Assembly (NCBI GenBank): GCA_013178295.1
Contig: JABLWW010000012.1
Location: forward strand, 62,001 to 126,000
DNA length: 64,000 nt
Source: Anaerolineae bacterium
GTDB taxonomy: Bacteria; Chloroflexota; Anaerolineae; Anaerolineales; Anaerolineaceae
Direction of reading: 5' to 3'
Below, piece by piece: positions 914 through 59,298 of the stretch; position 1 is the stretch's first letter, and each line of letters begins with the position of its first letter. Under the pieces are notes generated by a model that was given only the letters and a program-made list of their open reading frames with translations, was not told the DNA's origin and made no database searches. The position numbers and the translations under genes are program-made.

Positions 914-1864
914 CTATCCGCTATCCGCTTTGTGCCACACCCGTACGCAGTTTTTGCCCTCCGCTTTGGCGCGCAGCAGCGCCTGGTCAGCAAGCTCCAC
1001 CAGCCGTTCGGCGCTGTGCACGTGGTCGTTAGGCAGGGCTGCCACGCCAAAACTGAGGGTGATGTTGAGCCTGCCCACAGCGCTCTCCCACATTGTGCTG
1101 GCAATCAGCTCGCGCAGCCGCTCTGCCATAATTCCGCCCTCTTCCAGCCCGGTCAGCGGCAGGAGGATGACAAACTCCTCACCGCCGTAGCGGGCAAGGA
1201 TATCACCCTGCCGCAGGTTGTCCTGCATCAGCTGCACAACGCTTTTCAGCACCCAGTCGCCGGTGGCGTGGCCGTGACGGTTGTTGAACTGGCGGAAGTC
1301 GTCTATATCGCAGAAAATGCAAGCCAGCGGCGTGTGGTGGCGCTTTGCCAGCGAAAACTCGCGCTCCAGCGCCTCCGCCAGATAGTGGCGGTTATACGCC
1401 CCGGTTAGATGGTCGGTGAGGGCAATACGTCGCAGTGCCTGGTAGGAGTGGTGCTCGTCGGCAAGGCGCGCCAGCAGGTCGTCAATCATCTCTTTCACCC
1501 GCAGCAGCGCGGCGACGCGCGCCGTCAGCTCGCGCGGGTCAAAGGGTTTGACCAGATAGTCATTGGCGCCCGCCGAAAGACCGTCCACCGTGTCCTCCAC
1601 GCTGGTGCGCCGCTCGGTGAACATCAGCACTGGCAGATAGAGGGGATGGCTGCGGCGCAGTTCACTGCATACCTCAAACCCGTCCATATCAGGCAGCACC
1701 ACATCCAGCAGCACCAGGTCGGGCGGCTGCTGGGATGCCATTTCTATCCCCTGCTGCCCGGTCTCTGCCTGCGAGACGCGGTAGCCATGCTCCTCCAGCA
1801 GGTGGGCGGTGTATTTGCGCTGGGTGGCGCTGTCTTCAATAACCAGAATGTGCTTTTGTTCCAT
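914..1864 (-). CDS. REC-GGDEF diguanylate cyclase, WspR-like
   Basis: 316 aa starting at ATG 1864. An N-terminal receiver domain (about 5-120) has phospho-acceptor Asp54 and Lys106. A GGDEF domain (about 145-310) has an intact active site GGEEF at 227-231 and the inhibitory RxxD site (Arg218-Asp221) five residues before it. The domain order and last place after cheB match WspR, the c-di-GMP-producing output of the Wsp pathway, where phosphorylation of the receiver activates synthesis from two GTP. The start was chosen because an upstream in-frame extension would overlap cheB and has no receiver homology. The gap to cheB is 19 nt. Confidence 0.9.
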   Translation of the reverse strand: MEQKHILVIEDSATQRKYTAHLLEEHGYRVSQAETGQQGIEMASQQPPDLVLLDVVLPDMDGFEVCSELRRSHPLYLPVLMFTERRTSVEDTVDGLSAGANDYLVKPFDPRELTARVAALLRVKEMIDDLLARLADEHHSYQALRRIALTDHLTGAYNRHYLAEALEREFSLAKRHHTPLACIFCDIDDFRQFNNRHGHATGDWVLKSVVQLMQDNLRQGDILARYGGEEFVILLPLTGLEEGGIMAERLRELIASTMWESAVGRLNITLSFGVAALPNDHVHSAERLVELADQALLRAKAEGKNCVRVWHKADSG

Positions 1865-1883
1865 ATTGCCTTGTCCATAATAA

Positions 1884-2927
1884 TTATAATGCTGTCTCTC
1901 TGCCGCGGACCAGCATGTTGAGACGGGCGGCGATCTGATCCAGCGGCAGCGATTCCAGTGCAGCGCCCAGATCGGCGGCGGCTTTGGGCATGCCGTACAC
2001 CACGCTGCTGGCTTCATCCTGGGCGATGGTATATGCTCCCGCCTGACGCATGGCAAGCAGCCCGGCGGCGCCGTCCTCGCCCATGCCGGTCAGCAGCACC
2101 CCCAGCGCGCTTTCTTTCAGATGGTGCGCGGCCGACTCGAAGAGCGCATTGACGCACGGGCGCAGACCCCTTTGCGGCGGGGCGGTGCTCAGCCACAGCA
2201 GACCAGAGGCTTTGACCGTCAGATGATAGTCATCGGGAGCCAGGTACAGCCTGCCGGGTTGGGGGATTTCATCCTGCCCCGCCACCTGACAGCGGATGGG
2301 GGTTGTCTCGCTCAGCCACTGTGCCAGCCCGGAGACGAAGCCGCGCGCAATGTGCTGTACGGCGGCGATCGGCACAGGAAAATCGGGCGGCAGGGCGCTG
2401 AGCAGCTGCTGCAGGGCGGGCGGTCCGCCGGTGGAAGCCCCCACCACCACCAGACGGATGGGTTTTTTTGGCTGCCGCAGCGGCTGGGAGGGTGATGGGG
2501 AGGGTCGGTGTGCCGCCAGCGTGCGGCGCACCACCTTGACGCCTGCCATGAGTTTGACCTGGGCGATCAACTGGCGGGCGCGGATATCCTCCTGCGGCAG
2601 ACCGCGCGGTTTGGGCAGGGCGGTCAGCGCCCCCAGTTCCAGCGCCCGGAAGGTTACCCCGCTCAGCTGACCGGTGTCCATCGCCGTCAGCACCACAATC
2701 GGGCAGGGCGTCTCGCTCATAATGTGGCGGATGGCTTCAAACCCGCCCATGCCGGGCATGTTGATATCCATGGTGATCAGGTCGGGTTTGATCAGTTTTG
2801 CCTGTTCGCGGGCGGCTTCGCCGCTGCCCGCCTCGCCGATCACGGTGATGTCGGGGTCGCTTTGCAAAACGGCGCGGATCAGCAGACGCTGGGTGGGGGA
2901 GTCGTCAACAATCAGCACACGCAGCAT
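1884..2927 (-). CDS. cheB: CheB-type protein-glutamate methylesterase, WspF-like
   Basis: 347 aa. A receiver domain (Asp54 in MDINMP) is joined by a proline/serine linker (about 140-155) to a CheB esterase domain. The catalytic triad is visible: Ser165 in GASTGG, His192 in QHIARG and Asp285 in GMGEDG. In chemosensory pathways CheB removes methyl groups from receptor glutamates after phosphorylation by CheA, giving negative feedback; in Wsp, loss of WspF locks the pathway on. It lies 3 nt downstream of the CheA-REC gene. Confidence 0.93.
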   Translation of the reverse strand: MLRVLIVDDSPTQRLLIRAVLQSDPDITVIGEAGSGEAAREQAKLIKPDLITMDINMPGMGGFEAIRHIMSETPCPIVVLTAMDTGQLSGVTFRALELGALTALPKPRGLPQEDIRARQLIAQVKLMAGVKVVRRTLAAHRPSPSPSQPLRQPKKPIRLVVVGASTGGPPALQQLLSALPPDFPVPIAAVQHIARGFVSGLAQWLSETTPIRCQVAGQDEIPQPGRLYLAPDDYHLTVKASGLLWLSTAPPQRGLRPCVNALFESAAHHLKESALGVLLTGMGEDGAAGLLAMRQAGAYTIAQDEASSVVYGMPKAAADLGAALESLPLDQIAARLNMLVRGRETAL

Positions 2928-2930
2928 GGA

Positions 2931-5186
2931 TCACCGTATCAGTTGGGCAATCATTTCCAGCAGTTCGCGCTGGTCAAAAGAGGTTTTGACGATATAGGCA
3001 TCCGCTCCGGCTTGCAGCCCGCGCAGACGGTCGCTTTGCGAATCGAGCGAGGTAACCAGCACCAGCGGGATGTGGGCGGTGCGGGCGGCGCTTTTGACCG
3101 CTTCGGCAAGGGCAAACCCGTCCATCACGGGCATGTTGATATCCGAGACGATCAGGTCGGGGAGGGGTGCATCCGGCTGACGCAGCAGTTCCCATGCCTG
3201 ACTGCCATCCGAGACGGCGGTAACGGCGTACCCGGCGTTTTCGAGGATGAGCTTTTCCAGTGTGCGGGTGGTGATCGAATCGTCCACCACCAGAATACTG
3301 CGCTGACGTTGGGCGGCGGAAGGCTGGGCAGGCAGAGCGGGTGGGGGCGCCCCTTCCAGCGAGCGCATCAGCCCCGGCGGGTCGAGGACGATCACCACCT
3401 GTCCGCTGCCGAGGATGGCGGCGCCTGCCACGTTGCGCACACTGCGCAGCGGCGGTTTGAGGTGTTTGACTACCACCTCGTGCGTGGCAAGGAATTCCTC
3501 CACCCGCAGGGCGGCAAGTTTTTCAACCACGCCAAAGTGGACAATCGCAAGCCGATCATCGCTTGCGGGGGAGGCAGGCAGCCCAAGAGTCTGCGCCAGA
3601 TCGTAGAGCGGCAGCAGCCGCCCGTGCGCCGCAACCGCTGGTTTGCCGTCCACGCTGCCCACCTGGTCGCGGCGGATGCGCTGGATGCGGGCGACATTTG
3701 CCGCCGGGATGGCAAGCGTCTCGCCTGCGGCGCGCACCAGCAGCACCTGGCGCGAGACGTAGGACAGCGGCAGGGTCATGCGGAAGGTAACCCCCGCCCC
3801 GGGGTGGTTTTCCACCTCCAGCAGGGCGCCCAGCTGTTCGAGCGTGCGGTGCACCACGTCCAGCCCCACCCCGCGCCCGGCGATGCCGCTGACCTGTGCC
3901 GCGGTGGAAAGCCCCGAGCGGAAGATGAGCGCCAGCGTCTGGCTTTCGTCCAGCGTTTCTGCCTCTTTTGGCGTGATCATGCGCTGTGCGACTGCCTGAC
4001 GGCGCACCGCTTCCAAGTCAATCCCGCGCCCGTCGTCGCTGAGCGTGATCATCAGATGGCTGCCGCGCGGTTCCGCCCGCAGGCAGATGCGCCCACACGG
4101 CGGTTTGCCCAGCGCGGCGCGCTCCTGCGGCGGTTCGATGCCGTGCCCGAGGGCATTGCGCACCAGATGGGTAAGCGGGTCTTTGAGTTGTTCGAGCACG
4201 CGGCGGTCAACTTCTGTCTCGCTGCCTTCTATCTCCAGGGCGGCCTGCTTGCCGCTTTGGCGCCCCAGGTCGCGCACCAGGCGCGGGAAGATATCGAACA
4301 GACCGGCGATGGGCTGCATGCGGGCGCGGCGGATGTCGTTTTCAAAGCTGTCGGTGATCAGATTGAGCTGGGCGCGGTCGCTGCTCAACTGTTTGTGCAG
4401 GGCGTTGAGATCGCTTTCCAGTTTTTTGAGCGTCTGTTCGTGGTCTTTGAGGTAATTCAGCAGTGCCGGCAGCCCGCTCTGACCGGCTTCGACACGGCGC
4501 GCCAGGTCATGATAGTGCGGGCGCACGGCGCGCCAGGCTTTTTGTCTGCGCTGCACCTGCTGCCGGAGGGTGTGGGTGCGCTGCAGGGTTTCATCCAGAC
4601 GCATGCGCGCCCCCAACAGTTCGCCCAGCCCGTCCATGAGCGCATCCAGCCGCGTCACGGCAACGCGGATGGTCTCCTCGGCGGGGGTGGCGGGTTTGTG
4701 GGTTGAGACGGTGGCTGGTTCGGCGGGCGGTGCGGGGGTTGGCTCGGCGGGCGGTGCGGGGGCTGGCTCGGCGGGCGGCGCAGGGGCTGGCTCGGCGGGG
4801 TGCAGCAGGGCTTCCAGACGCTCCAGCAGAGGCTGTGCTTCCGGCGGCGTCTCGTTTTCGGCGGCGCGCCGCAGGATATCCACCATACCAAACAGGGTGT
4901 CAAAGTGCGCCGCTTCCAGCGGCGGGTTGTGTTTGCGCAGAAAATCCAGGGCGTCTTCCAGACGGTGGGCAAGCGCCGCCAGATGCTCGAGCTGCACCGA
5001 ACCGGCGGCGCCCTTCAGGCTGTGGGCGGCGCGGAAGAGGGCTTGCAGCTGCTCCTGACGCGCCTCGCCCTGCAGACCACCTTCCAGCGCCAGCAGCCCG
5101 GCGTTGAGCGCGGCAAGATGCTCTTCCATCTCAGCGCGGAAGGTCTGCATCAGTTCAGCCCAAAAGGCGTTCTGCGGGTTAGCCAT
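2931..5186 (-). CDS. cheA: Hybrid chemosensory histidine kinase CheA-REC, WspE-like
   Basis: 751 aa from ATG 5186, which overlaps the receptor stop by 8 bp. An HPt domain has phospho-acceptor His55 (AAHSLKG). A proline-rich EPAPAPPA repeat linker follows (about 130-165), then dimerisation and HATPase domains with G1 DDGRGID and G2 GRGVGLD, a CheW-like domain, and a C-terminal receiver (from about 625, Asp in SDINMP). The N-box reads RNALGHG, with Gly where E. coli CheA has Asp, as some non-flagellar CheA proteins vary here. A CheA with a fused receiver is typical of WspE. It should phosphorylate both CheB and the REC-GGDEF protein encoded downstream. Confidence 0.93.
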
Positions 5187-7305
5187 CCTGCTCCACGCGG
5201 TAACGGCGTACCATCTCTGCCAGCGACTGGCTGAGCTGGTCGAGGTTATGGATTGCCTGTTCCACCTGACGCATCCCGGCTTGGGTTTGGGCGGCGCTGA
5301 GGTTGATGTTTTCCATGGCGGCGGTGATCTGATCCATCCCAGCCAGCTGCTGGCGGGTGCTGGCGGCGATCTGCTGAGCCAGGTTGGCGGTCTGCTCGGC
5401 GTGGGTGTAGATGGACTGAATTGACTGGCGGGTGTTTTGGGCAAGGGCGGCGCTTTCTTCGGCGCGGCGTGTGCCCTGCTCGGTGACCATCACGGCGGTG
5501 TTGGCGCCTTTTTGAATCTCAGCCAGGATGCTGCTGATTTGGGCGGTTGCCTGACGCGATTGCTCTGCCAGACTGCGCACTTCGCCTGCCACGACGGCAA
5601 ACCCGCGCCCGGCTTCTCCGGCGCGGGCGGCTTCCATGGCGGCATTGAGCGCCAGCAGGTTGGACTGGTCGGCGATATCGTTGACGGCGTTGATGATCTC
5701 GCCGATCTGCTGTGTCTGCTCGCTGAGGGCGAGGATCGTCTCGGCGATGATGCGCACCTGGTCTTTCAGCCCGAGCATGCCCTGGGCGGCGGCTTCGATG
5801 GTCTGCGTTCCCTCCTGCGCCAGTTTGAGCGAACTGGCGGACATTTCAGCCACCTGCTGGGTGCGCTCGGCAGCCTGGGCAGCTGTCTGACGTACCTCTT
5901 CGATGGTGGCGGTGGTTTCTGCCACGGCGGCGGCTTGTTCGGAGGAGGTCGCCGCCTGCTCGCTGACAGTGGCGGAAATCTCGGCGGTAGCAGCTGCCAG
6001 GTCGCTGGCGGCGCTGCGCATGCGGCGGGTGTTGTCGCGCAGCCGCTCGATCATCTCGCCAAAAGCGCTGCCGAGGATATCGCCCGGCGAGCGCGGGGCA
6101 ATGGCGGCTGTCAGGTCTCCGGCGGTCACGCGGCGGGCGGTCTCGGTCAGCGGCTGGAGGTACTCATCCAACATGCGCGCAAAGGCGCGGCGGATGGCGC
6201 CGACCTCGTCGCGGCGCATCTCGATGCTGCTGTGCTCGCGTTCCTCTTCCAGACGGACAAAATCGCCCTCGGCAGCCAGCTCGGCGGCGCGGGTCAGCGC
6301 TTCCAGCGGGCGGGTGATGCCGCGCGTCATCCTGGCGGCGATGAACGACTCCGCCAGCAGGGCAGCCAGGCTGATGCCTATCATGAGCAGGATGGTGGTG
6401 CGCACCATGCGTCTGGTACGCGCGGCCGAGGCTTCGAAATCGGCATTGACGCTCTGGTAGATGGCGGTGGCGCTCTGCCGCGCCTGCGGGCCGGAAACGT
6501 TGATGCTCTTTTCGATCAGCTCGTTTTGGCGTTCATAGCCCACCTGCAGGTCTTTGAAGCGCCCGCGGTAAGTTTTGACGGCGGTGTCAATTTCCATCGC
6601 CAGTTGTTTGCCTTCGCCCTGGTCGAGGACGGGGTCGCGGGTTTTGTTCATCTGCTCGAGTGCGGTGCGCGCCTGGTCGTAGTATTCATCGAACCGCGCG
6701 GCGTACTGCGGGTCGCCAGCGCGCAGATACTGGAAGGTGGCGGTGAACATGAGATGGATGGCGTCCGAGGCTTCGGCTTCGTGGTAGAGGGTGGCGATTT
6801 TGCCGTCCTTTTGCAGCAAACGGCGCAGGGTGCTGAGCTTCTCATTCAGCAGTGCGGCTTGCGGCTCGAGCTGCTGATGGACGGACTGGCCGCGCAGTTC
6901 CATCAGACGGACGATTTCCTCAAACGACTGCGTGTAGTCTTTGAAGCTTTTCTGCACGTCTGCCAGCAGGGCGCGGCGCTGTGGGTTGGTGATCTGCACA
7001 TCCGCCTGGCGGCTGAGGTTCTCAAAATCTGCTGCGCTCTGGCGGTGCGCAGCGAGGTCATCCGGGCTGTTCCACATCAGATAGCGGACGGCGGCAAGGC
7101 GCGCCTGGTAGATGGTTCTGACCATCTCCTGCGCCAGGTCCTGGTCGGCAGCCAGGTCGGTAGTCAGACGCTGGAATTCGGTGTTGATGCGCGTCAGTTG
7201 CGCCCCGGCAACGATGGCGAGGAGCAGCATCAGCCCGATGCCGATGGAAAAGAGCAGTGAGACTTTTGTGCCGATTTTCAGGTTATCAAAGCCTTTCATA
7301 TACAT
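5179..7305 (-). CDS. Methyl-accepting chemoreceptor, WspA-like
   Basis: About 708 aa. A first membrane helix (about 12-33) precedes a long helical periplasmic/extracellular sensor, then a second membrane helix near residue 305, a HAMP domain and a second HAMP-like segment. The methyl-accepting signalling hairpin contains the conserved tip [23 protein letters not shown]. Three in-frame starts are possible (GTG 7311, ATG 7305, ATG 7299); a GAGG ribosome site sits 5 nt before ATG 7305, which is preferred. The C terminus lacks a CheR-binding pentapeptide. It lies between a cheW and the cheA gene, so it is likely the dedicated receptor of this array. Confidence 0.9.
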
Positions 7306-7325
7306 ATACACCTCGTATCAAAGCG

Positions 7326-7907
7326 CTATGGCGAGCCGTAGCTGCGGCTCTGGTCTTGATCATCGTCCACCACCAGGCGCGGGTCTGCCAGCAGTTGTTC
7401 CAGGTCGAGGAGGATGAGCATGTCTTGGGTCACGCCGCGCAGATATGGGCGGGCGGGGGCAGCTGGTGGCGGCTGCAGGGTGTGCGGGTCAATGGTGAGC
7501 AGGCGGGGGGTGTCATCACTGAGCAGCGCCAGTTCCATTTCCTCGCCGCCGCGCACCAGCAAAACGTGGGCGGAAGGGGTGGGGGGATGGGCGGGCAGCC
7601 CGTGAAACGCTGCCAGGTGAAAGATGGAGATGATGCGCCCGCGCAGGTTGAGGATGCCGGTGATAAAGGGCGGGACAGCGGGAACGCGGCACCAGTGGTG
7701 GGCGCACAGCGGCTGGGTTTCCTGTGCCAGGTGGGCAGGAACGGCGTAGTGTTCTGCGCCGAGGCGGAAGGCAACCACCTCCAGCCCCTGCGGGGCGGTT
7801 GCATCGGGCATGAGGGGGGCAGCCAGCAGACGGGCGCGCTCTTCGAGGATGCGCTGGTTTTGCTCGGCGGCGCGCTGTGCAGCGGAAGGGGTGCGGCGCG
7901 CGGTCAT
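7326..7907 (-). CDS. cheW: CheW-like coupling protein, WspD-like
   Basis: 193 aa with an N-terminal helical extension rich in Arg/Ala/Glu (about 1-35), then a single CheW domain with the characteristic ITGILNLRGRIISIFHL segment near residue 105. It should link the receptor to CheA. The start codon overlaps the cheR stop in an ATGA arrangement. It is one of two CheW genes in the operon, as in Wsp (WspB and WspD). Confidence 0.88.
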   Translation of the reverse strand: MTARRTPSAAQRAAEQNQRILEERARLLAAPLMPDATAPQGLEVVAFRLGAEHYAVPAHLAQETQPLCAHHWCRVPAVPPFITGILNLRGRIISIFHLAAFHGLPAHPPTPSAHVLLVRGGEEMELALLSDDTPRLLTIDPHTLQPPPAAPARPYLRGVTQDMLILLDLEQLLADPRLVVDDDQDQSRSYGSP

Positions 7908-9454
7908 TGGCTGCCTCCCATACGCAGTACATCGGCGGCGGTGAGATGGTCAGCGCCGGGTAAGGGGGTTTCGGGGGGCAGGCTGCGCGCCAGACGCAGA
8001 GCGGCGGCGCGGGCGCGCTGGGCTTCCTGCGGGCTGCCGTGTGCCTGGTAGATGCCTGCCAGCGCCAGGTGCGCCAGGATGAACTGCGGGTCGAGATAGA
8101 GGGCTTTTTTGTAGCAGGCAAGCGCCTGTGTCAGGTCGCCGCGCTCCTGATGCACCAGCCCGAGCAGATAGTGCGCCTGACTGTGGAGGGGGTCAAGCGT
8201 CAGGATGCGTTGGGCGCAGCGGGCGGCTTCGTCCAGCCTGCCAGCGTTGGCTGCCAGGCGCGCCAGCGCCAGCAGGGCGGGGAGGTGGTCGGGGTTGTGC
8301 TGCAAAGATTGTTCAAAGAGTTGTGCGGCTTCGTGCGGGCGGTGCTGGGCAAGCAGCGCCGCGGCGCGGGCGTACAGGTCTTCGGCGGGCGGTGCGGGCG
8401 GGGGTGCGGGCGGGGCGGGGGTTGGGGGCGCGGGCTGTGCGGCGGGCGGCGGTGTGGGGGTGGGTGTGGGTGTGATGACGGTTTGCGGTGCGGCAGGCTG
8501 CATGGCGGGCGCGGGCGCGGGCGGGGGTTGGGGAGCGGGCGACAGCATGGGCGGGGAGAGGGGTGCGGTCTGCGGCGGTGCGGGCGCGGGGGTGTCAGTT
8601 TTGTGGTATGCCATTGCCTTTTCGAACCACACCGGCTGCAGTGGATGGTAGAGCGGGTCGTTGGCTTCACCGGCAGCAACCATCAGCCAGCCTTCGGGCG
8701 CCAGACAGCGCTGGAGGCGGCGGGCAATGCTGACGATGACCTCTTCGGGCAGGTAAATCATCACGTTGCGGCACAGGATGAGGTCAAGCCCCTCGGTTTG
8801 GGTGGCTGTGGAGGGGTAGTCGTCCTCCGCCAGGTTGAGGTAGGCAAAGCGCACCAGACGGCGCAGGTCGGGGCGCAGTTCCCACTCGTGGGCGCGGCGT
8901 TCAAAATAGGCACTGCGCAGGCTCTCGTCCATTTGACGGAAAGACCAGGCACGGTAGCGTGCCTGCTGGGCGCGCTGGAGGGCGCGGCGGTTGATATCGG
9001 TTGCCAGCAGGTGAATGTACCAGCGCTCCAGGTCGGGGAGCAGCTGGTGGAGCAGGATGGCAAGGGTATAGGGTTCCTCGCCGGTCGAGCAGGCGGCGCA
9101 CCACAGCCGCAGGGTGTGGCTTTGCCAGCGGCGGGCGATGAGCGCCGGGAGGATGTGCTCACGCAGGGCGTTCATTTGCTCGGCGTCGCGGAAGAAGTAC
9201 GTCTCGCAGATGGTGATCTCTTCGATGAGGTCTTCCCAGATGGGGGAAGAGGTGGGGGAGGCGTTGAGCAGGTCGTAGTATGCCTGCGGGTTGGGGGCTG
9301 CGGCGCGGCGGGCGCACTCGGTCAGGCTGCGCTGCAGATGTTTGCGGCGGCGTCCGCCTGCGGCGATGCCGGTGCGGGCGGCGATCAGCGCCTCAAAGCG
9401 GGCGGTCTCCTCCGTAAGCGTGCCGGGGGAGGGCGGCTGCGCGGGAAGGGGCAT
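7904..9454 (-). CDS. cheR: CheR methyltransferase with C-terminal TPR domain, WspC-like
   Basis: 516 aa. The CheR catalytic part (about 10-280) includes the conserved ITICETYFFRD segment, the SAM-binding ACSTGEEPYT motif and a LILCRNVMIYL strand. A proline-rich linker (about 290-355) is encoded by low-complexity DNA at 8380-8600. At least three TPR repeats follow (about 358-490, for example GRLDEAARCAQRILTLDP). CheR methylates receptor glutamates using SAM; a TPR tail is found in WspC and FrzF and may dock the enzyme to receptors lacking a pentapeptide tether, which fits the receptor encoded here. It overlaps the upstream cheW by 1 nt. Confidence 0.93.
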   Translation of the reverse strand: MPLPAQPPSPGTLTEETARFEALIAARTGIAAGGRRRKHLQRSLTECARRAAAPNPQAYYDLLNASPTSSPIWEDLIEEITICETYFFRDAEQMNALREHILPALIARRWQSHTLRLWCAACSTGEEPYTLAILLHQLLPDLERWYIHLLATDINRRALQRAQQARYRAWSFRQMDESLRSAYFERRAHEWELRPDLRRLVRFAYLNLAEDDYPSTATQTEGLDLILCRNVMIYLPEEVIVSIARRLQRCLAPEGWLMVAAGEANDPLYHPLQPVWFEKAMAYHKTDTPAPAPPQTAPLSPPMLSPAPQPPPAPAPAMQPAAPQTVITPTPTPTPPPAAQPAPPTPAPPAPPPAPPAEDLYARAAALLAQHRPHEAAQLFEQSLQHNPDHLPALLALARLAANAGRLDEAARCAQRILTLDPLHSQAHYLLGLVHQERGDLTQALACYKKALYLDPQFILAHLALAGIYQAHGSPQEAQRARAAALRLARSLPPETPLPGADHLTAADVLRMGGSQ

Positions 9455-9942
9455 CAGCCCTCCTCCTGTTGGCTGACGGGCAGCAGACGGGCGGCATCCA
9501 GCGCCAGCACCAGGCTGTGCCCGCGCCGAAAACTGCCCAGCAGCGGGCGGGAAGCGGTCAGCGCGGTGGGAGGCGGCTGTATTTCATGCCGGGCGGGGGC
9601 GGTTACCTCCAGCACGGCGTCCACCCACAGGAGAAAACGCCCTATGCCTGTTTCCACCACCAGCAGGCGGTCATCGGGGTGCGGCGGGCGGGTGGCAAGC
9701 CCAAAACGGGCGCGCAGATCGAGGACGGGCAGCGCCTCGCCGCCCAGATTGAGCAGTCCGGCGCTCCACGGCGGGGCATCGGGCAGGCTGGTGAGAGCCG
9801 CCATGCGCACGGCGCGGCGCACGTTTTCCAGCGGCAGGGCATAGAGCTGCCGCTCAAGGCGGAAAACGACAAAATATCCCTCTCCCGACATAGACGGGGT
9901 GAGGCGGGCTTCCACGGTGGCAGAGGGCGGTCGTTTGGACAT
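9454..9942 (-). CDS. cheW: CheW-like coupling protein, WspB-like
   Basis: 162 aa from ATG 9942 (TTG 9948 is possible two codons earlier). One CheW domain spans nearly the whole protein, with the typical SAGLLNLGGEALPVLDL strand region near residue 65. It is the first gene of the chemosensory operon. No strong ribosome site is visible; a TACACT hexamer at 9964-9969 on this strand could be the -10 box of the operon promoter. Confidence 0.87.
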   Translation of the reverse strand: MSKRPPSATVEARLTPSMSGEGYFVVFRLERQLYALPLENVRRAVRMAALTSLPDAPPWSAGLLNLGGEALPVLDLRARFGLATRPPHPDDRLLVVETGIGRFLLWVDAVLEVTAPARHEIQPPPTALTASRPLLGSFRRGHSLVLALDAARLLPVSQQEEG

Positions 9943-10017
9943 TATCAATGCCAGTTACAGGAAGTGTACCATTTTTCAATGGAGGGGGCAAATTTTTTGA
10001 GGCAAGCGCGGCAATCT

Positions 10018-10037
10018 TTCCCGCGGCGCGGCGGGAA
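10018..10037. terminator. GC-rich stem-loop between mgsA and the chemosensory operon
   Basis: Arms of 7 bp (TTCCCGC and GCGGGAA) around a 6-nt loop. The stem lies about 30 nt past the mgsA stop on the minus strand. There is no clear T tract, so a classic intrinsic terminator is only possible. Confidence 0.35.
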
Positions 10038-10068
10038 GGGGCGGTTTGTCCTGTGGATGCGCCCGCGG

Positions 10069-10569
10069 CTACCGTACTGGAGCGGGGTCAGGGCTGGCGG
10101 TCGGCTGGTCGGCTTCCAGACGGCGGGTGCGGTAATCCTCGTAGTCGGGCACCAGGCGGTGGTAAGTGTCGTCCATCAGCGGCGAGGAGATCATAAAATC
10201 GGCGGAGGCGCGGTTGCAGGCGATGGGAATGTTCCACACCACTGCCATGCGCAGCAGGGCTTTGACATCCGGGTCGTGCGGCATCGGTTCCAGCGGGTCC
10301 CAGAAGAAGATGAGAAAGTCAATCTCGCCGTCCACAATTTTGGCGCCAATCTGCTGGTCGCCGCCCAGCGGGCCGCTTTGCAGTTTGACGACTTCAAAGC
10401 CGAGCGCTTTTTCGAGCATCTCGCCGGTGGTGCCGGTGGCGTAAATGCGGTGGTGCGCCAGCAGGTCGCGGTTGAACTTTGCCCACTCCAGCAGGTCGCG
10501 TTTTTTGTTATCGTGCGCCACCAGGGCAATGTGTTTATCGTGCATCATGGGGATTTTGAGATGTTTCAT
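10069..10569 (-). CDS. mgsA: Methylglyoxal synthase
   Basis: 166 aa from ATG 10569. It converts dihydroxyacetone phosphate to methylglyoxal and phosphate, a glycolytic bypass. Family landmarks are present: the [10 protein letters not shown] start, the ATGTTGE phosphate-binding loop, [14 protein letters not shown], and the [18 protein letters not shown] region with the catalytic Asp. The start has a GGAG ribosome site and overlaps the stop of the upstream dehydratase gene by 4 nt (ATGA), so the two are translationally coupled. Confidence 0.93.
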
Positions 10570-11525
10570 GCAGTGCTCCTTTGCCAGGGGAGGCGCTCCA
10601 AATCCACGTTGCCGCCGGAGAGGATGACGCCCACCCGCAGCCCGTCGAGACGGATTTTGCGCTCCCACAGCAGACCGAGCGGCACAGCGGCAGAGGGTTC
10701 GATGAGCAGTTTGGCGCGCTCCCACACAAAACGCATGGCGGCGATAATGGCTTCTTCGCTGACGGTAACGATCTGCTCGACATCACGCTGGATGACGGCG
10801 AAGGTGCGCGGACTGAGCGAGGTGAGCAGCCCGTCGGCGACGGTGCGCGGGCTGACGGAGGGGATGATGTGCCCGGCTTGCAGCGAGCGGTAGGCGTCGT
10901 CTGCCATTTCTGGCTCGGCGGCGATGACGCGGGCGCGCGGCAGCAGGGCGCGCGTGGTGATGGCGCTGCCGCTGAGCAAACCGCCCCCGCCCACCGGCGC
11001 CAGCACGACATCCAGCTCGCCCGTCTGCTGGATCAGCTCCAGGGCGGCGGTGCCCTGCCCGGCGATGATCTGGTCGTTATCGTAGGGGTGCACTTCCACG
11101 GCGCCGTTTTGCCCGATGACCTGCGCCAGCGTGGCTTCGCGCGCTTGCAGTGTGGGGGCGCAGAAGGTGATCTGCCCGCCGTAGCCAGCCACGGCGGCTT
11201 TTTTGACCGCTGGGGCGTTTTCGGGCATGACGATGTAGGCGGGGATGCCGCGCAGCCGTGCCGCCAGCGAGAGCGCCTGGGCGTGGTTGCCGGAGGAGTG
11301 CGTTGCCACCCCGCGCTGCGCCTGTTCACCGCTCAGCGCAAAGACTACATTGCACGCCCCGCGGAACTTGAAGGCGCCCACCTTTTGCAGGTTTTCGCAT
11401 TTTAAAAACACCTGCGCCCCCACCTGGCGGTTGAGGCTCTCACAGGTCATCACCGGTGTATGGTGAATATAGGGGCGGATGCGCACCGCGGCGCGCAGAA
11501 CGTCTTCGATGGTGGTCTGGCTCAT
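10566..11525 (-). CDS. Threonine/serine dehydratase-like PLP enzyme
   Basis: 319 aa, fold type II PLP enzyme of the TdcB/serine racemase size class, without the C-terminal regulatory domain of biosynthetic IlvA. The PLP lysine lies in FKFRGACN, the substrate loop is SSGNHAQA, and the phosphate-binding glycine loop is GGGGLLSG. It should deaminate threonine or serine to 2-oxobutyrate or pyruvate; serine racemase activity cannot be excluded. A TATAAT box (11536-11541, minus) lies only 10 nt before ATG 11525, leaving almost no leader. It is co-transcribed with mgsA. Confidence 0.88.
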
Positions 11526-11969: not shown

Positions 11970-12377
11970 ATGGCGCTGATTGATTGGGATGACTCTTTTA
12001 CAGTGAACGTCAAACAGCTGGATGACCAGCACAAACAGATCATCGGGATGATCAACAACCTGCACGCCGCCATGCAGGCTGGCAAAGGGCGGCAGGAGGT
12101 GGGCGAGATCATTAACAAGATGGTGGAGTACACCCGTCTGCACTTTTCGAGCGAGGAGAAAGTGCTCTCCGAAAACGGCTACCCTGCCTACAACGACCAA
12201 AAGAGGGCGCACGATGCCTTTACCCAGCGCGTGCTCGATTTTCAACAGCAGTATCAGCAGAGCAATCTGGTGCTCAGTTTGCAGGTGATCGGCTTTCTCA
12301 AAGAGTGGTGGACGGGGCATATCCTGGGCGAAGACCGCAAATACGCTGCGTTTCTCAACCAAAAGGGCGTGCGTTGA
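11970..12377 (+). CDS. Bacteriohemerythrin-like protein
   Basis: 135 aa, full length for a single-domain bacterial hemerythrin, a four-helix O2-binding or O2-sensing di-iron protein. Ligands seen are His21, His58, Glu62 (HFSSEE), His81, His117 and Asp122. At the position where the family has His four residues before His81, this protein has Gln77 (codon CAA), so one of the five histidines is missing and iron binding may be altered. A GAGGTG ribosome site precedes ATG 11970. Confidence 0.9.
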   Translation: MALIDWDDSFTVNVKQLDDQHKQIIGMINNLHAAMQAGKGRQEVGEIINKMVEYTRLHFSSEEKVLSENGYPAYNDQKRAHDAFTQRVLDFQQQYQQSNLVLSLQVIGFLKEWWTGHILGEDRKYAAFLNQKGVR

Positions 12378-33951: not shown

Positions 33952-34503
33952 ATGACCAAACGTGCCACGTACGCGGTGGAAATTGCCGGTTTGCGGCGCG
34001 AACTGCCGCTGTTTGAGATCAAGCCCGGTCTGCGCATTGCCATTCTCAACATTCTGGGCGATACCGAACTGGTGCAAGCCTGCGCCAAAGCGCTGGCGGA
34101 AAAGTTCAAGAACGTGGACTATGACCTGCTGGTAACCGCCGAAGCCAAAAGCATCCCGCTGGCGCATGCCCTCTCGGTGGAAACCGGCAAGCCGTATGTG
34201 ATTCTGCGCAAAGCCTATAAGCCCTATATGGGCGATGCGATTCAAGCCGAAACGCTTTCGATCACCACCGGTCAGCCGCAGACGCTGTACCTGGATGAGA
34301 AAGACCGCAAGCTGATCAAGGGCAAAAAGGTGATGGTGGTGGATGATGTCATCAGCACCGGCTCGACCCTGCAGGGGATGCGCATGTGCATCCAGAAAGC
34401 CGGGGCGGAGGTGGTGGCTGAGGCGGCAATTTTCACCGAAGGCGAGCGCGCCCAGTGGCAGAACATCATCTCGCTTGGGCATTTGCCCGTCTTCACCGGG
34501 TAA
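33952..34503 (+). CDS. Adenine phosphoribosyltransferase-like protein
   Basis: 183 aa. The PRPP-binding motif is MVVDDVISTGSTL, and the N-terminal part (PLFEIKPGLRIAILNILGDTEL, VTAEAKSIPLAHAL) follows the Apt family. It should form a nucleotide from a purine base and PRPP. Start at ATG 33952 with an AGGAGG site. The next gene begins 31 nt later. Confidence 0.83.
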   Translation: MTKRATYAVEIAGLRRELPLFEIKPGLRIAILNILGDTELVQACAKALAEKFKNVDYDLLVTAEAKSIPLAHALSVETGKPYVILRKAYKPYMGDAIQAETLSITTGQPQTLYLDEKDRKLIKGKKVMVVDDVISTGSTLQGMRMCIQKAGAEVVAEAAIFTEGERAQWQNIISLGHLPVFTG

Positions 34504-34534
34504 TTCCGCCTGCAGATGCTGGATGGAAGATGCG

Positions 34535-36208
34535 ATGAGCTTCCCCAAAAAACCGATTGACCACATTCAGCAGTTGGGGGAGGGGGTAGCGGCGCGCATG
34601 CCGCCGCGCCTGGAGGAAATCCGCTCTGCCTGGCAGGCGGCTTGTGCCGATGGGGGCTGGACGTCGGAGAACGCCCGTCATCTCTATCTGCTGCTGCACC
34701 GTCTGGTGGGGTGTAGCGCCCAGTTTGGTATGAGCGAGATCCAAAGCGCGGCGCAGGCATTTGAGGCGGAGGTGGTGGCGAACCTGGGGGAGGCGCTGGA
34801 CGATGCCAAACGCCGCCGCATGGATGCTTTGCTGGAGAAGCTGATGCAGGTTGCCGAGAAGAAAATCAAGCTGCGCCTGCCCGATTTGCGGGCGCACATC
34901 AACGCCATCCCCTCGGTGCGCGACAGCCGCGCCAGCCGTCTCATCTATCTGGTGGAGGATGACCCGGTTCAGGCAGAGATCCTCTCGATGCAGATCGGCT
35001 ACTTTGGCTACAACGTGTGCACCTTCACCGCTCTGGAGTCTCTGCGCCAGGCGATGGAAGATACCCTGCCCACTGCCATCATCATGGATGTGATTCTGGA
35101 GGAGGGCTTCACTGCCGGACCGCAGGCAGCCGCCGAGATACACCACAGCCAAAGCGGCGGCATCCCCCTCATCTTTATCTCGGAGAGCGACCTGTTCACG
35201 CACCGTCTGTCGGCGGTGCGTGCCGGGGGCGAGGCGTATTTTCTCAAACCGGTGGACATCAGCCAGCTGATTGACGCCCTCGACCGTCTGACGGCGCATG
35301 AGGAGACCCCCAAATACCGCGTGCTGATTGTCGAAGATTCGCCCACGCAGGCAAAGCTGTTTGAAAATTATCTGCGCGCGGCCGGAATGGAAACGCTGGT
35401 GGTGCGCAACCCGCTGGAGGTTTTGCAGCCGCTCAACGAGTTTAACCCTGACCTGGTGCTGCTGGATATGTACATGCCGCAGTGTTCGGGGATGGAGCTG
35501 GCTGCGGTGATCCGTCAGATTGACCGCTTTCTCAGCCTGCCGATCGTCTTTCTTTCGGCTGAGACAAATACCGATGTGCAGCTGGGAGCGATGCAGCTGG
35601 GCGGGGATGACTTTTTGACCAAACCGATCACGCGCGAGCATTTGGTGCGGGCGGTTTCCTCGCGCGCCGGGCGCTACCGCAAGCTGCGCGATATGATGAT
35701 GCGCGACGGGCTGACCGGTTTGCTCAACCACACCATGCTCAAAGACCGTCTGGCGGCTGAGCTGCTGCGCGCCGGAAGACAAGGCAGCCCGGTGGCGTTT
35801 GCCATGCTCGACCTTGACCGCTTCAAGCTGGTCAACGACACCTACGGACACGCCAGCGGCGATCAGGTGCTCAAGGGGCTGGCGCGGCTTCTCTCGCAGC
35901 GCTTGCGCGCCTCCGACAGCATCGGGCGTTATGGCGGCGAGGAGTTTGCCGTCATCCTGCCCGATACCCCCGGGCAGGCGGCGGTGCGTTTGATGGATGA
36001 ACTGCGCGATGGTTTTTCCAATGTGGTGCATCATTCCAGCGGGGGAGATTTCACCGCTACCTTTAGCTGTGGTGTGGCTTCATTTCCGCGCTTTGTCACC
36101 CCGGCCGAGATCAGCGATGCCGCCGACCGCGCCCTGTACGCCGCCAAACAGCGCGGGCGCAACCGTGTCGTCTTTGCCGATGATCTGGATGAGATGAAGG
36201 AGGGCTAA
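34535..36208 (+). CDS. HPt-REC-REC-GGDEF diguanylate cyclase
   Basis: 557 aa from ATG 34535 (GGAAG site). An N-terminal HPt-like helical domain (about 1-110, LLLHRLVGCSAQFGM) precedes receiver 1 (acidic EDD, Asp in IIMDVIL), receiver 2 (EDS, Asp in LLDMYMP, Lys in LTKPI) and a GGDEF domain with GGEEF and an inhibitory RASD (RxxD) site five residues before it. It should synthesise c-di-GMP under multi-step phosphorelay input. No cognate kinase gene is adjacent. The HPt segment has His in LLHRLVG, as expected for the acceptor. Confidence 0.88.
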   Translation: MSFPKKPIDHIQQLGEGVAARMPPRLEEIRSAWQAACADGGWTSENARHLYLLLHRLVGCSAQFGMSEIQSAAQAFEAEVVANLGEALDDAKRRRMDALLEKLMQVAEKKIKLRLPDLRAHINAIPSVRDSRASRLIYLVEDDPVQAEILSMQIGYFGYNVCTFTALESLRQAMEDTLPTAIIMDVILEEGFTAGPQAAAEIHHSQSGGIPLIFISESDLFTHRLSAVRAGGEAYFLKPVDISQLIDALDRLTAHEETPKYRVLIVEDSPTQAKLFENYLRAAGMETLVVRNPLEVLQPLNEFNPDLVLLDMYMPQCSGMELAAVIRQIDRFLSLPIVFLSAETNTDVQLGAMQLGGDDFLTKPITREHLVRAVSSRAGRYRKLRDMMMRDGLTGLLNHTMLKDRLAAELLRAGRQGSPVAFAMLDLDRFKLVNDTYGHASGDQVLKGLARLLSQRLRASDSIGRYGGEEFAVILPDTPGQAAVRLMDELRDGFSNVVHHSSGGDFTATFSCGVASFPRFVTPAEISDAADRALYAAKQRGRNRVVFADDLDEMKEG

Positions 36209-56791: not shown

Positions 56792-59181
56792 TTATGGTGT
56801 CTGGGCGGGGGGCTGGCTTTCCGCCGGGGCAGCCGCGTCCTGATCAATCAGGCTGAGAAAGACCTGCACAACGCGCGGGTCAAAGTGCGCTCCGCTTTGC
56901 TCAATCAGGTAGCGCCGCGCCTCTGCCTCAGACCACGCCGGACGGTAGGGGCGGTTGCTGGTCAGCGCGTCGTAAACGTCCACCACCGCAAAAATCCGCG
57001 CGGCGAGCGGAATCTGCTCTTCTTTAAGCCCCTGAGGATAACCGCTGCCGTCCCATTTTTCGTGATGGCAGTAGGGAATATCCAGACTGGGGCGCAGATA
57101 TTCGATTTCCTCAAGCAAGGCGCGGGCAAATTCGGGATGCTGGCGCATGATGACCCATTCGTCGGGCGTCAGCCGCCCGGGCTTGAGCAGAATCTCATCC
57201 GGCACGCCCAGCTTGCCGATATCGTGCAGCAGCGCCCCGCGCTTGATGTGGGTCAAGTCGGCTTCCGTGCAGCCCAGCAGTTTTGCCATACGCAGCGTCT
57301 GCTCGACCACGCGGTAGGAATGGTTGGCGGTCTCGCGCTCGCGCAGTTCCAGCGCGCGCGCCCAGCCCAGCAGCGTGGCTTCATACGCCTGTTCCAGCAG
57401 GGCATGTGCGCGGCGCAGTTCAAGCTCAGACTGGATGCGGTCGGTAATATCACGCGTGATGGAGAGGATGCACGGCTCGCCGTTGATGACAATCACCTTT
57501 GCCGACATCAGCCCAACGCCGATCTCGCCGTTTTTGCGGCGGAAGCGCGCTTCCAGGTTTTCGACAAACCCCTTTTCCTGCAATCCCTTCACCAGCCGGG
57601 CGCGGTCGTTGGGATCAACCCAAATTGACAGCTCGAGTGAGGATTTTCCAATGACGTCTTCGCGGGTGTAGCCCATCAGCCGCGTGAACCCCTGATTGAT
57701 GTCAATATAGACGCCGTCCGCAAGACGGTTGATGTTGACCGAATCGGGCGAGGTCATAAAGGCGGTGGAAAACTTTTCCTCAGAAACACGCAGTGCCTCG
57801 GCGGAGCGGATGCGCTGGGTGATATCCGAGAACACCGCCACCATCCTGCCCGGCGATTCCTGAAAGGCGCTCACCTCATACGCGCCTTCAATGGGGTGAT
57901 GCGAGTAATCCACCCGCTCGCTACGCCATACCCCGCCGTGTATGGCGATCTGACGGTAGCGCTCGGGTATCTCGGTCTCTGCCAGCCCTGGGAATGCCTC
58001 TTCGATGGGTTTGTTGAGCAGGGCGGCGTGATCAATTCCCAGCAGCGCATCCGCCGCCGGGTTATAGCCGCTGAAGATCAGGTTTCCGGCATCATCGAGA
58101 AAATAGATGTGGACACCCATGGGGAGCGCTTCGATGATATTGCGAAATTTGCGCTCCGAAGCCTGCAGGGCAAACTCCGCCTGCTTTTGCAGATGGATAT
58201 CGCGGCTGGAAAGGGCAAACCCGCTGAGCGCGCCGCTGGCATCGTAGATGGGGTTGCCGCTGACTTCCATGTAGAGATAGTCGCCGCTGCTGTGCTTCGT
58301 CCGCAGGGCAACTCTTCTGGGTTTGCCGTCCGCCGCGGCGGCTTGGGCGTGCCCCAGCACGTGGGCCAAATCGTCCGGATGCACCAGGTCAAAGGCATTG
58401 CTCCCCAGCAGATCGTGCGGGTCGTAGCCCAGCGTGGTTTTGTAGGAGGGCGAGACATAGCGGAAGATGCCGTTGGGGTCAATCTCGGCAACCAGGTCGG
58501 TGGTGTTCTCTGCCAGGCGGCGCAGGGTGGCGTCCATCTCTTCTTGGGCTTGCTCGGCGTGCTGGCGGCGGATGATTTCGGCTTGCAGCTGCTGGTTGGC
58601 TTCGATCTGGGCGGCAAGCGCCTGCTGCAAACGTGAATACGCATACCATTGCAGCAGTGCAATCCCTAAAAGTGCAAAAAAGAAGGTGATCAGATAGGGG
58701 AGCGCATCGCCAAGAGCTGCCCCAACCGAAAGACCAGAGACGACATACGCCAGCATGCAGCCTGCCACCATCCAAAATGCGGCACGGCTGTTGATGAGCA
58801 TCCCCGCCAGAATCACCGCCAGCGGATAAAACAGCAGCATCACCGAGAGAAAACCAAAGCCGAGTGTGCCATACACTCCCAGACCAAAGCATATCACCGC
58901 TGGAAAATACCTTGCCAACGCCAGCCGCCGCGCTTTGCCCCCTGCCAGGCAGGCAGAAGCAGTGCAAGCACAATATAGATGGGAAGGGTCTCTAGAAAAG
59001 TGAACCAGCCGTCCAGGGTGAAGGCAAGGATGATGCCTGCCGCGATAGCAGAAACCAGCATCATCAGCCGCGTGATGTCGCCCGTCCAGTGTTCCTGCTG
59101 CGCGTCCCAGCCCGCGTTCACGTCTTTGGGGAGTGAATGCCCGCCGGTGCGGTTGTCGTGCGCGTCCGATCCCATATCCAT
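56792..59181 (-). CDS. Membrane-bound PAS/HD-GYP phosphodiesterase, frameshifted near its N terminus
   Basis: The N-terminal part (ATG 59181, MDMGSDAHD, two hydrophobic helices) is in one frame; the rest, from about 58940 on, is in another. A missing G in a run of five (58939-58943) would restore a single frame (reading QGGKARRLALARYF). The body has more helices, three PAS domains (about 230-600) and a C-terminal HD-GYP domain with HDIGKLGVPDE and HHEKWDGSGYP, which hydrolyses c-di-GMP. Either a sequencing error or a real mutation. ATG 59181 is favoured because it follows a TATAAT box (59199-59204, minus). Confidence 0.8.
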
Positions 59182-59298
59182 ACCAATACTGTGATTCCAT
59201 TATACCCTGCGGGCACAGAAAGCGCGCCTGGCAGACCGCTTACAATGTTTGGCGCTGTGCGGCAGTTTTTTCCCAAAAGAAGCCGCGGCGTGATATGC

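Follow-up and report, generated by a model that had tools for sequence, protein, structure and literature searches.

Background

Two described chemosensory systems come closest to the locus reported here. The first is the Wsp system of Pseudomonas and Betaproteobacteria, which is defined by wspA-B-C-D-E-F synteny together with at least 30% identity and has been found only in beta- and gammaproteobacteria (PMC8552884). The second is the class of pathways with 'alternative cellular function' (ACF), to which all chemosensory pathways of Chloroflexi were assigned in 2012; a CheR joined to TPR repeats (CheR-TPR) is present in about 80% of Chloroflexi genomes, and some 20 regulators of CheR-TPR clusters are GGDEF proteins, i.e. 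REC-GGDEF outputs (PMC3447774). Such ACF clusters consist of CheR-TPR, CheA, CheB, CheW and a REC-output regulator, as does the operon examined here, and no difference of kind between them was found. We found no individual description of the present operon in that survey, and a literature search for Chloroflexota CheA in connection with c-di-GMP found nothing.

The operon lies in a stretch of 64,000 nucleotides (hereafter the window) from an Anaerolineae bacterium. An earlier note, made from the letters of the sequence, had regarded it as a complete Wsp-like surface-sensing operon whose receptor gene had been moved; the full set in a likely Chloroflexota host would then be a distant occurrence. 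The host assignment is likely to be correct: in an RpoB tree the genome groups with members of its own order, class and phylum (support 91/77 for the whole group), and the Chloroflexi MAG FW602_bin.22 nests among them (95/97 together with a same-phylum genome). Four rows of this tree (two Planctomycetota, Faecalibacterium and an actinobacterium) form a long-branched artefact outside the group of interest, where the largest open reading frame was probably taken in the wrong frame. As to the operon itself, we consider it very probable that it encodes an ACF-class pathway at home in Chloroflexota, in which a receptor with a helical bimodular (HBM) domain would act through CheA on a diguanylate cyclase under methylation-based adaptation, and which is Wsp-like but not Wsp.

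Operon structure and components

Seven co-oriented genes occupy positions 914-9942 on the minus strand in the order CheW, CheR-TPR, CheW, chemoreceptor, CheA-REC, CheB and REC-GGDEF, so that both the architectures and the order B-C-D-A-E-F-R given in the earlier note were confirmed by Pfam, motif checks and gene coordinates. The first CheW gene, in the position of WspB, spans 9454-9942 (-) (Pfam CheW, 97.8 bits) and starts with an ATG at 9942, a TTG at 9948 being also possible. It is followed by the CheR methyltransferase at 7904-9454 (-), which has a proline-rich linker and TPR repeats as in WspC and FrzF (Pfam CheR, 156 bits) and carries the SAM motif ACSTGEEPY, and by a second CheW in the position of WspD at 7326-7907 (-) (81 bits). 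The membrane chemoreceptor (MCP; 5179-7311, -) combines an ectodomain with HAMP and MCP signalling domains, as recognized by Pfam and hydropathy. The hybrid CheA (2931-5186, -) comprises Hpt, dimerisation, HATPase, CheW and REC domains with an intact H-box (AHSLKG, H55), N and G boxes and REC aspartate D682. CheB (1884-2927, -; Pfam CheB, 209 bits) unites a REC domain with D54 and a methylesterase with the catalytic residues S165, H192 and D285. The last gene (914-1864, -) encodes a REC-GGDEF diguanylate cyclase of 316 aa, in which D54, the RxxD product site RQGD (218-221) and the GGEEF motif (227-231) are all intact, as had been claimed.

The operon domains score above the Pfam cut-offs, except for CheR_N, which lies below, and the four-helix bundle (4HB) assignment of the receptor, which is borderline. 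No NCBIfam model names any of the operon's proteins Wsp, and of the chemosensory models CheB alone (CheB subfamily) reached its cut-off. Within the operon the intergenic spacing ranges from -8 to +19 bases, and the sole larger gap is the free stretch of 126 bases that precedes the first gene (9943-10068), a likely promoter region, in which a scan for the sigma-70 consensus gave no match. A run of seven matching architectures, so tightly packed, is not due to chance. The G+C content of the operon (roughly 0.62-0.69) is slightly higher than that of the neighbouring DNA (0.54-0.64 in the next 10 kb), which does not clearly indicate a foreign origin.

The receptor and its ectodomain

The receptor has transmembrane segments at residues 17-35 and 307-325 (hydropathy), which enclose a large helical ectodomain of about 270 aa (residues about 36-306; 6394-7206, -). 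Searched as a whole, the receptor gave a borderline Pfam 4HB match (27.4 bits against a cut-off of 27), which we reassigned to HBM, while the WspA references match 4HB at 63 and 74 bits over about 160 residues. The isolated ectodomain matches Pfam HBM (PF16591) with E=1e-4 and 22.3 bits, below the cut-off of 29.8 bits, and the same holds for the receptors of two related operons discussed below (L121 and L122). A single-sequence AlphaFold2 model (pTM 0.61) contains helices only; three long ones run through the ectodomain, where pLDDT is mostly 74-96 in blocks of 10 residues. Compared by Foldseek, this model found its best matches in the organic-acid receptor McpS (2yfb/2yfa; TM to target 0.82-0.84, rmsd 2.5 Å), and no match other than the four chains of its malate- or succinate-bound ligand-binding domain fell below 1e-3. 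An HBM domain consists of six helices arranged as two stacked bundles, and the model agrees with this fold in the Foldseek comparison. Sequence identity to the McpS HBM domain is only 12%. Judged from a single-sequence model and a sub-threshold Pfam match, the ectodomain thus appears to fold like an HBM domain and not like the four-helix bundle of WspA. The signalling half of the receptor shares 44-47% identity with its counterparts in other B-C-D-A-E-F operons, and 29% with WspA.

Because the ectodomain is predicted to fold like the HBM domain of McpS and not like WspA 4HB, the surface sensing proposed in the earlier note is unsupported, and by analogy with McpS a ligand-type sensor is more likely than WspA-like contact sensing. 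Could a helical ectodomain nevertheless sense mechanical contact or surfaces, as in Wsp or Pil-Chp? PilJ, the Pil-Chp receptor, is indeed the next Foldseek match after McpS (E 3e-3), and type II/IV (pilus/secretion-type) ATPases are encoded in the genome; the PilJ match is, however, poor beside that to McpS (TM to target 0.48 and rmsd 8.9 Å against 0.84 and 2.5 Å), and no pilus gene was seen beside the operon, so that we regard a contact sensor as unlikely.

Gene order in related loci

To place the operon among its relatives, the CheA core was searched in 396 genomes of the class and 400 of the phylum, and neighbourhoods were fetched for the better matches and annotated with profiles made from the window's own domains; in the following, W stands for CheW, C for CheR-TPR, A for the receptor, E for CheA-REC, F for CheB and R for REC-GGDEF, and 'Chloroflexota loci' are those from the window's class and phylum. 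The genes W-C-W-A(A)-E-F stand in a row in 17 of the 89 Chloroflexota CheA-REC loci examined, a number that is a lower bound since many of the remaining loci are cut by contig ends; the Wsp order A-W-C-W-E-F occurs in none of these 89, many of which end at contig ends. Two operons, L121 and L122, belong to a single genus within another family (f18) of the window's class; both read W-C-W-A-A-E-F-R, with a REC-GGDEF protein of 331-339 aa. A genome of the window's own family (G001) has W-C-W at a contig end (L112), with 34-38% identity to the window.

The same order extends beyond the phylum. Bacteroidales (L016, L017) share the core order, followed by a REC-kinase, and in Burkholderiales (L175, L178, L181, L182, L191) a GGDEF regulator comes after W-C-W-A-E-F. 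Where these Burkholderiales regulators were compared with the short REC-GGDEF protein of the window (L174, L175, L178, L181, L191, all with the window's order of six core genes), they were far longer (948-1244 aa), the one scanned, from L174, being REC-GAF-PAS-GGDEF-EAL. The canonical Wsp order A-W-C-W-E-F was likewise found in Burkholderiales (L184, L189, L212-L217). The WspR gene comes next in all of these except L213, where no WspR adjoins the operon and a receiver gene lies upstream of it, an arrangement that matches the WspH variant as described (PMC8552884). That L184 is Wsp was confirmed by its cyclase, which scores 447 bits against P. aeruginosa WspR (3bre).

W-CheR.TPR-W-MCP-CheA.REC-CheB is, then, a common ACF operon order in Chloroflexota, and is found in Burkholderiales and Bacteroidales as well. 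Since so many non-Wsp operons share it, no gene move is needed to explain the position of the receptor gene, and the presence of the full set in this phylum, where ACF pathways and CheR-TPR were already published in 2012 (PMC3447774), is no surprise. By its order B-C-D-A-E-F-R the window operon also falls outside the synteny by which Wsp is defined (PMC8552884).

A different fixed order, W-A-E-REC-F-CheR.TPR, was observed in another class of the phylum (L194, L196, L199, L202, L204, L205, L207-L209), with a TPR-rich protein next in most of these loci.

The diguanylate cyclase

Among solved structures, the window cyclase is closest to PleD (213 bits) and to DgcR of Leptospira (177 bits), and scores 132 bits against WspR (3bre). 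It has a PleD/DgcR-like linker and lacks the YHSRSY stalk common to the WspR references; PleD differs from it in having two REC domains. By these comparisons the cyclase is nearer to PleD and DgcR than to WspR, and it is not the WspR orthologue.

A cyclase gene at the end of such an operon could be a chance neighbour, in which case CheA would act for the most part through CheB, through the REC domain that it carries itself or through a regulator that is not linked to the operon. Regulators 3' of CheB do vary widely among related operons, where REC-kinase, REC, Hpt-REC and REC-GGDEF proteins are found. Against this, the gap between the cyclase gene and cheB is 19 bases, and an orthologous cyclase lies 3' of cheB in L121 and L122, i.e. 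in another family. Because L121 and L122 share it, the association of cyclase and operon has persisted while the two lineages diverged far (51% identity for the concatenation described below), and a chance neighbourhood seems to us quite improbable. Similarly, since these two operons of another family carry W-C-W-A-A-E-F-R, the set with a short REC-GGDEF protein is an inherited or jointly transferred unit and not a one-off.

A nearer relative of WspR than the window cyclase, as judged from sequence, was seen in another class of the same phylum: the REC-GGDEF protein at L206:6736-7866, whose gene belongs to a W-A-E-F-(Hpt-REC)-R operon, reaches 230 bits against P. aeruginosa WspR, its best match among solved structures, and is sister to the WspR clade of Wsp (98/99), although the CheA of L206 does not group with Wsp.

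Phylogenetic position

In a tree of 89 CheA rows the window CheA falls among ACF CheAs and apart from the motility type, with moderate support in the deep branches (SH-aLRT 80-82); all Wsp references fall together in one clade, and the CheA of the window groups with L121 and L122 at 98. A tree of 41 rows gives 99/99 for the window with L121/L122 and 100/100 for a separate Wsp clade. The REC-GGDEF tree likewise unites the window with L121/L122 (100/100) and places Wsp apart (100/100). In a concatenation of CheA, CheB and CheR (1017 columns) the window again joins L121/L122 at 100/100, and Wsp is split from all 31 other operons by a branch of length 1.05 (100/100). AU tests on the concatenation rejected a grouping of the window with Wsp to the exclusion of L121/L122 (p=2e-5), whereas CheA alone rejected neither Wsp with the window (p=0.08) nor Wsp with the window and L121/L122 (p=0.18).

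Pairwise identities agree with this picture. Between the window and L121/L122 they amount to 55% for R, 48-51% for F, 45% for E, 42% for A and 40-46% for C. Against Wsp they are 32-35% for R, 37-41% for F, 34-37% for E, 29% for the signalling part of A and 27-29% for C, the references here being Burkholderiales proteins and not the Pseudomonas/Burkholderia queries to which the 30% criterion of PMC8552884 refers. The window CheA thus belongs to the same broad ACF class as that of Wsp, but the window has no place inside the Wsp clade in the CheA, cyclase or CheA+CheB+CheR trees. By descent the operon lies outside the Wsp clade.

That the operon is true Wsp, vertically or horizontally acquired, with its receptor gene shifted from the front of the operon to the fourth position, is highly improbable: it has the seven architectures and the broad ACF class of CheA in common with Wsp, but its order is that of many non-Wsp operons of Chloroflexota, Burkholderiales and Bacteroidales, Wsp is a separate 100/100 clade in the concatenated tree, the cyclase reaches 132 bits against WspR where that of a canonical operon reaches 447, and the ectodomain is HBM-like with about 270 aa where WspA has a 4HB domain of about 160 aa.

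Genomic surroundings

Eleven bases downstream of the cyclase gene lies a short-chain dehydrogenase gene (180-902, -), possibly co-transcribed with the operon; as an eighth operon member it was rejected, having no match in L121 or L122. Just upstream of the operon, on the same strand and 126 bases apart, 10069-11525 (-) encodes an MGS-domain protein (probable methylglyoxal synthase) and a threonine-dehydratase-like PALP enzyme. A small protein at 11970-12377 (+) resembles bacteriohemerythrin, by eye only, in its motif DDSFTVNVKQLDDQHKQI. The window holds a second c-di-GMP regulator, an Hpt-REC-REC-GGDEF protein of 621 aa (34343-36208, +), and a PAS-rich protein with an HD domain (HD_5; 56792-59200, -), possibly a c-di-GMP phosphodiesterase of the HD-GYP type. 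On another contig of the same genome there is a second CheA, of the motility type, together with CheB and an ordinary CheR, and the genome also encodes two PilZ proteins.

Proposed function

The architectures support the chemosensory c-di-GMP switch that had been predicted as the function of the operon. By analogy with McpS, the HBM-like ectodomain would bind a small molecule, and the receptor would then, through HAMP and the two CheW proteins, set the autokinase activity of CheA. CheA would then phosphorylate the neighbouring cyclase on its REC domain, and the cyclase may thereupon dimerise and make c-di-GMP until the product fills the RxxD site. The receptor would be adapted through methylation by CheR-TPR and demethylation by CheB, itself activated by CheA, whose own REC domain may serve as a phosphate sink or competitor. 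Possible effectors or targets of c-di-GMP are the two PilZ proteins and the pilus/secretion-type ATPases, encoded elsewhere in the genome. That a ligand is bound, that phosphate is transferred, which way the response goes and what it acts on in the cell are predicted here from the protein families.

With Wsp the operon thus shares the seven architectures and the predicted wiring to c-di-GMP, and it differs from Wsp in gene order, clade, cyclase (PleD/DgcR-like) and receptor (HBM-like, where Wsp has 4HB).

Conclusions

ACF pathways in Chloroflexi and REC-GGDEF outputs are already published; what the window adds is a well-preserved operon that is wired like Wsp but belongs to another lineage and uses another sensor. 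It also corrects a tempting mis-annotation. As the B-C-D-A-E-F core is common across phyla and occurs beside true Wsp in Burkholderiales, the seven-protein set alone is no proof of Wsp. A switch that is analogous to Wsp and whose sensor probably binds a ligand would moreover allow the adaptation of c-di-GMP output to be tested by adding a soluble stimulus, with no need of a surface. Tentatively, and with somewhat less than an even prospect of being right, we propose that Chloroflexota built this compact seven-gene switch, joining a metabolite-binding HBM receptor to a dedicated cyclase under full methylation adaptation, independently of Wsp. If this is true, the ACF class would have given rise on two or more occasions, and with different sensors, to chemosensory c-di-GMP control whose output is a short REC-GGDEF protein.
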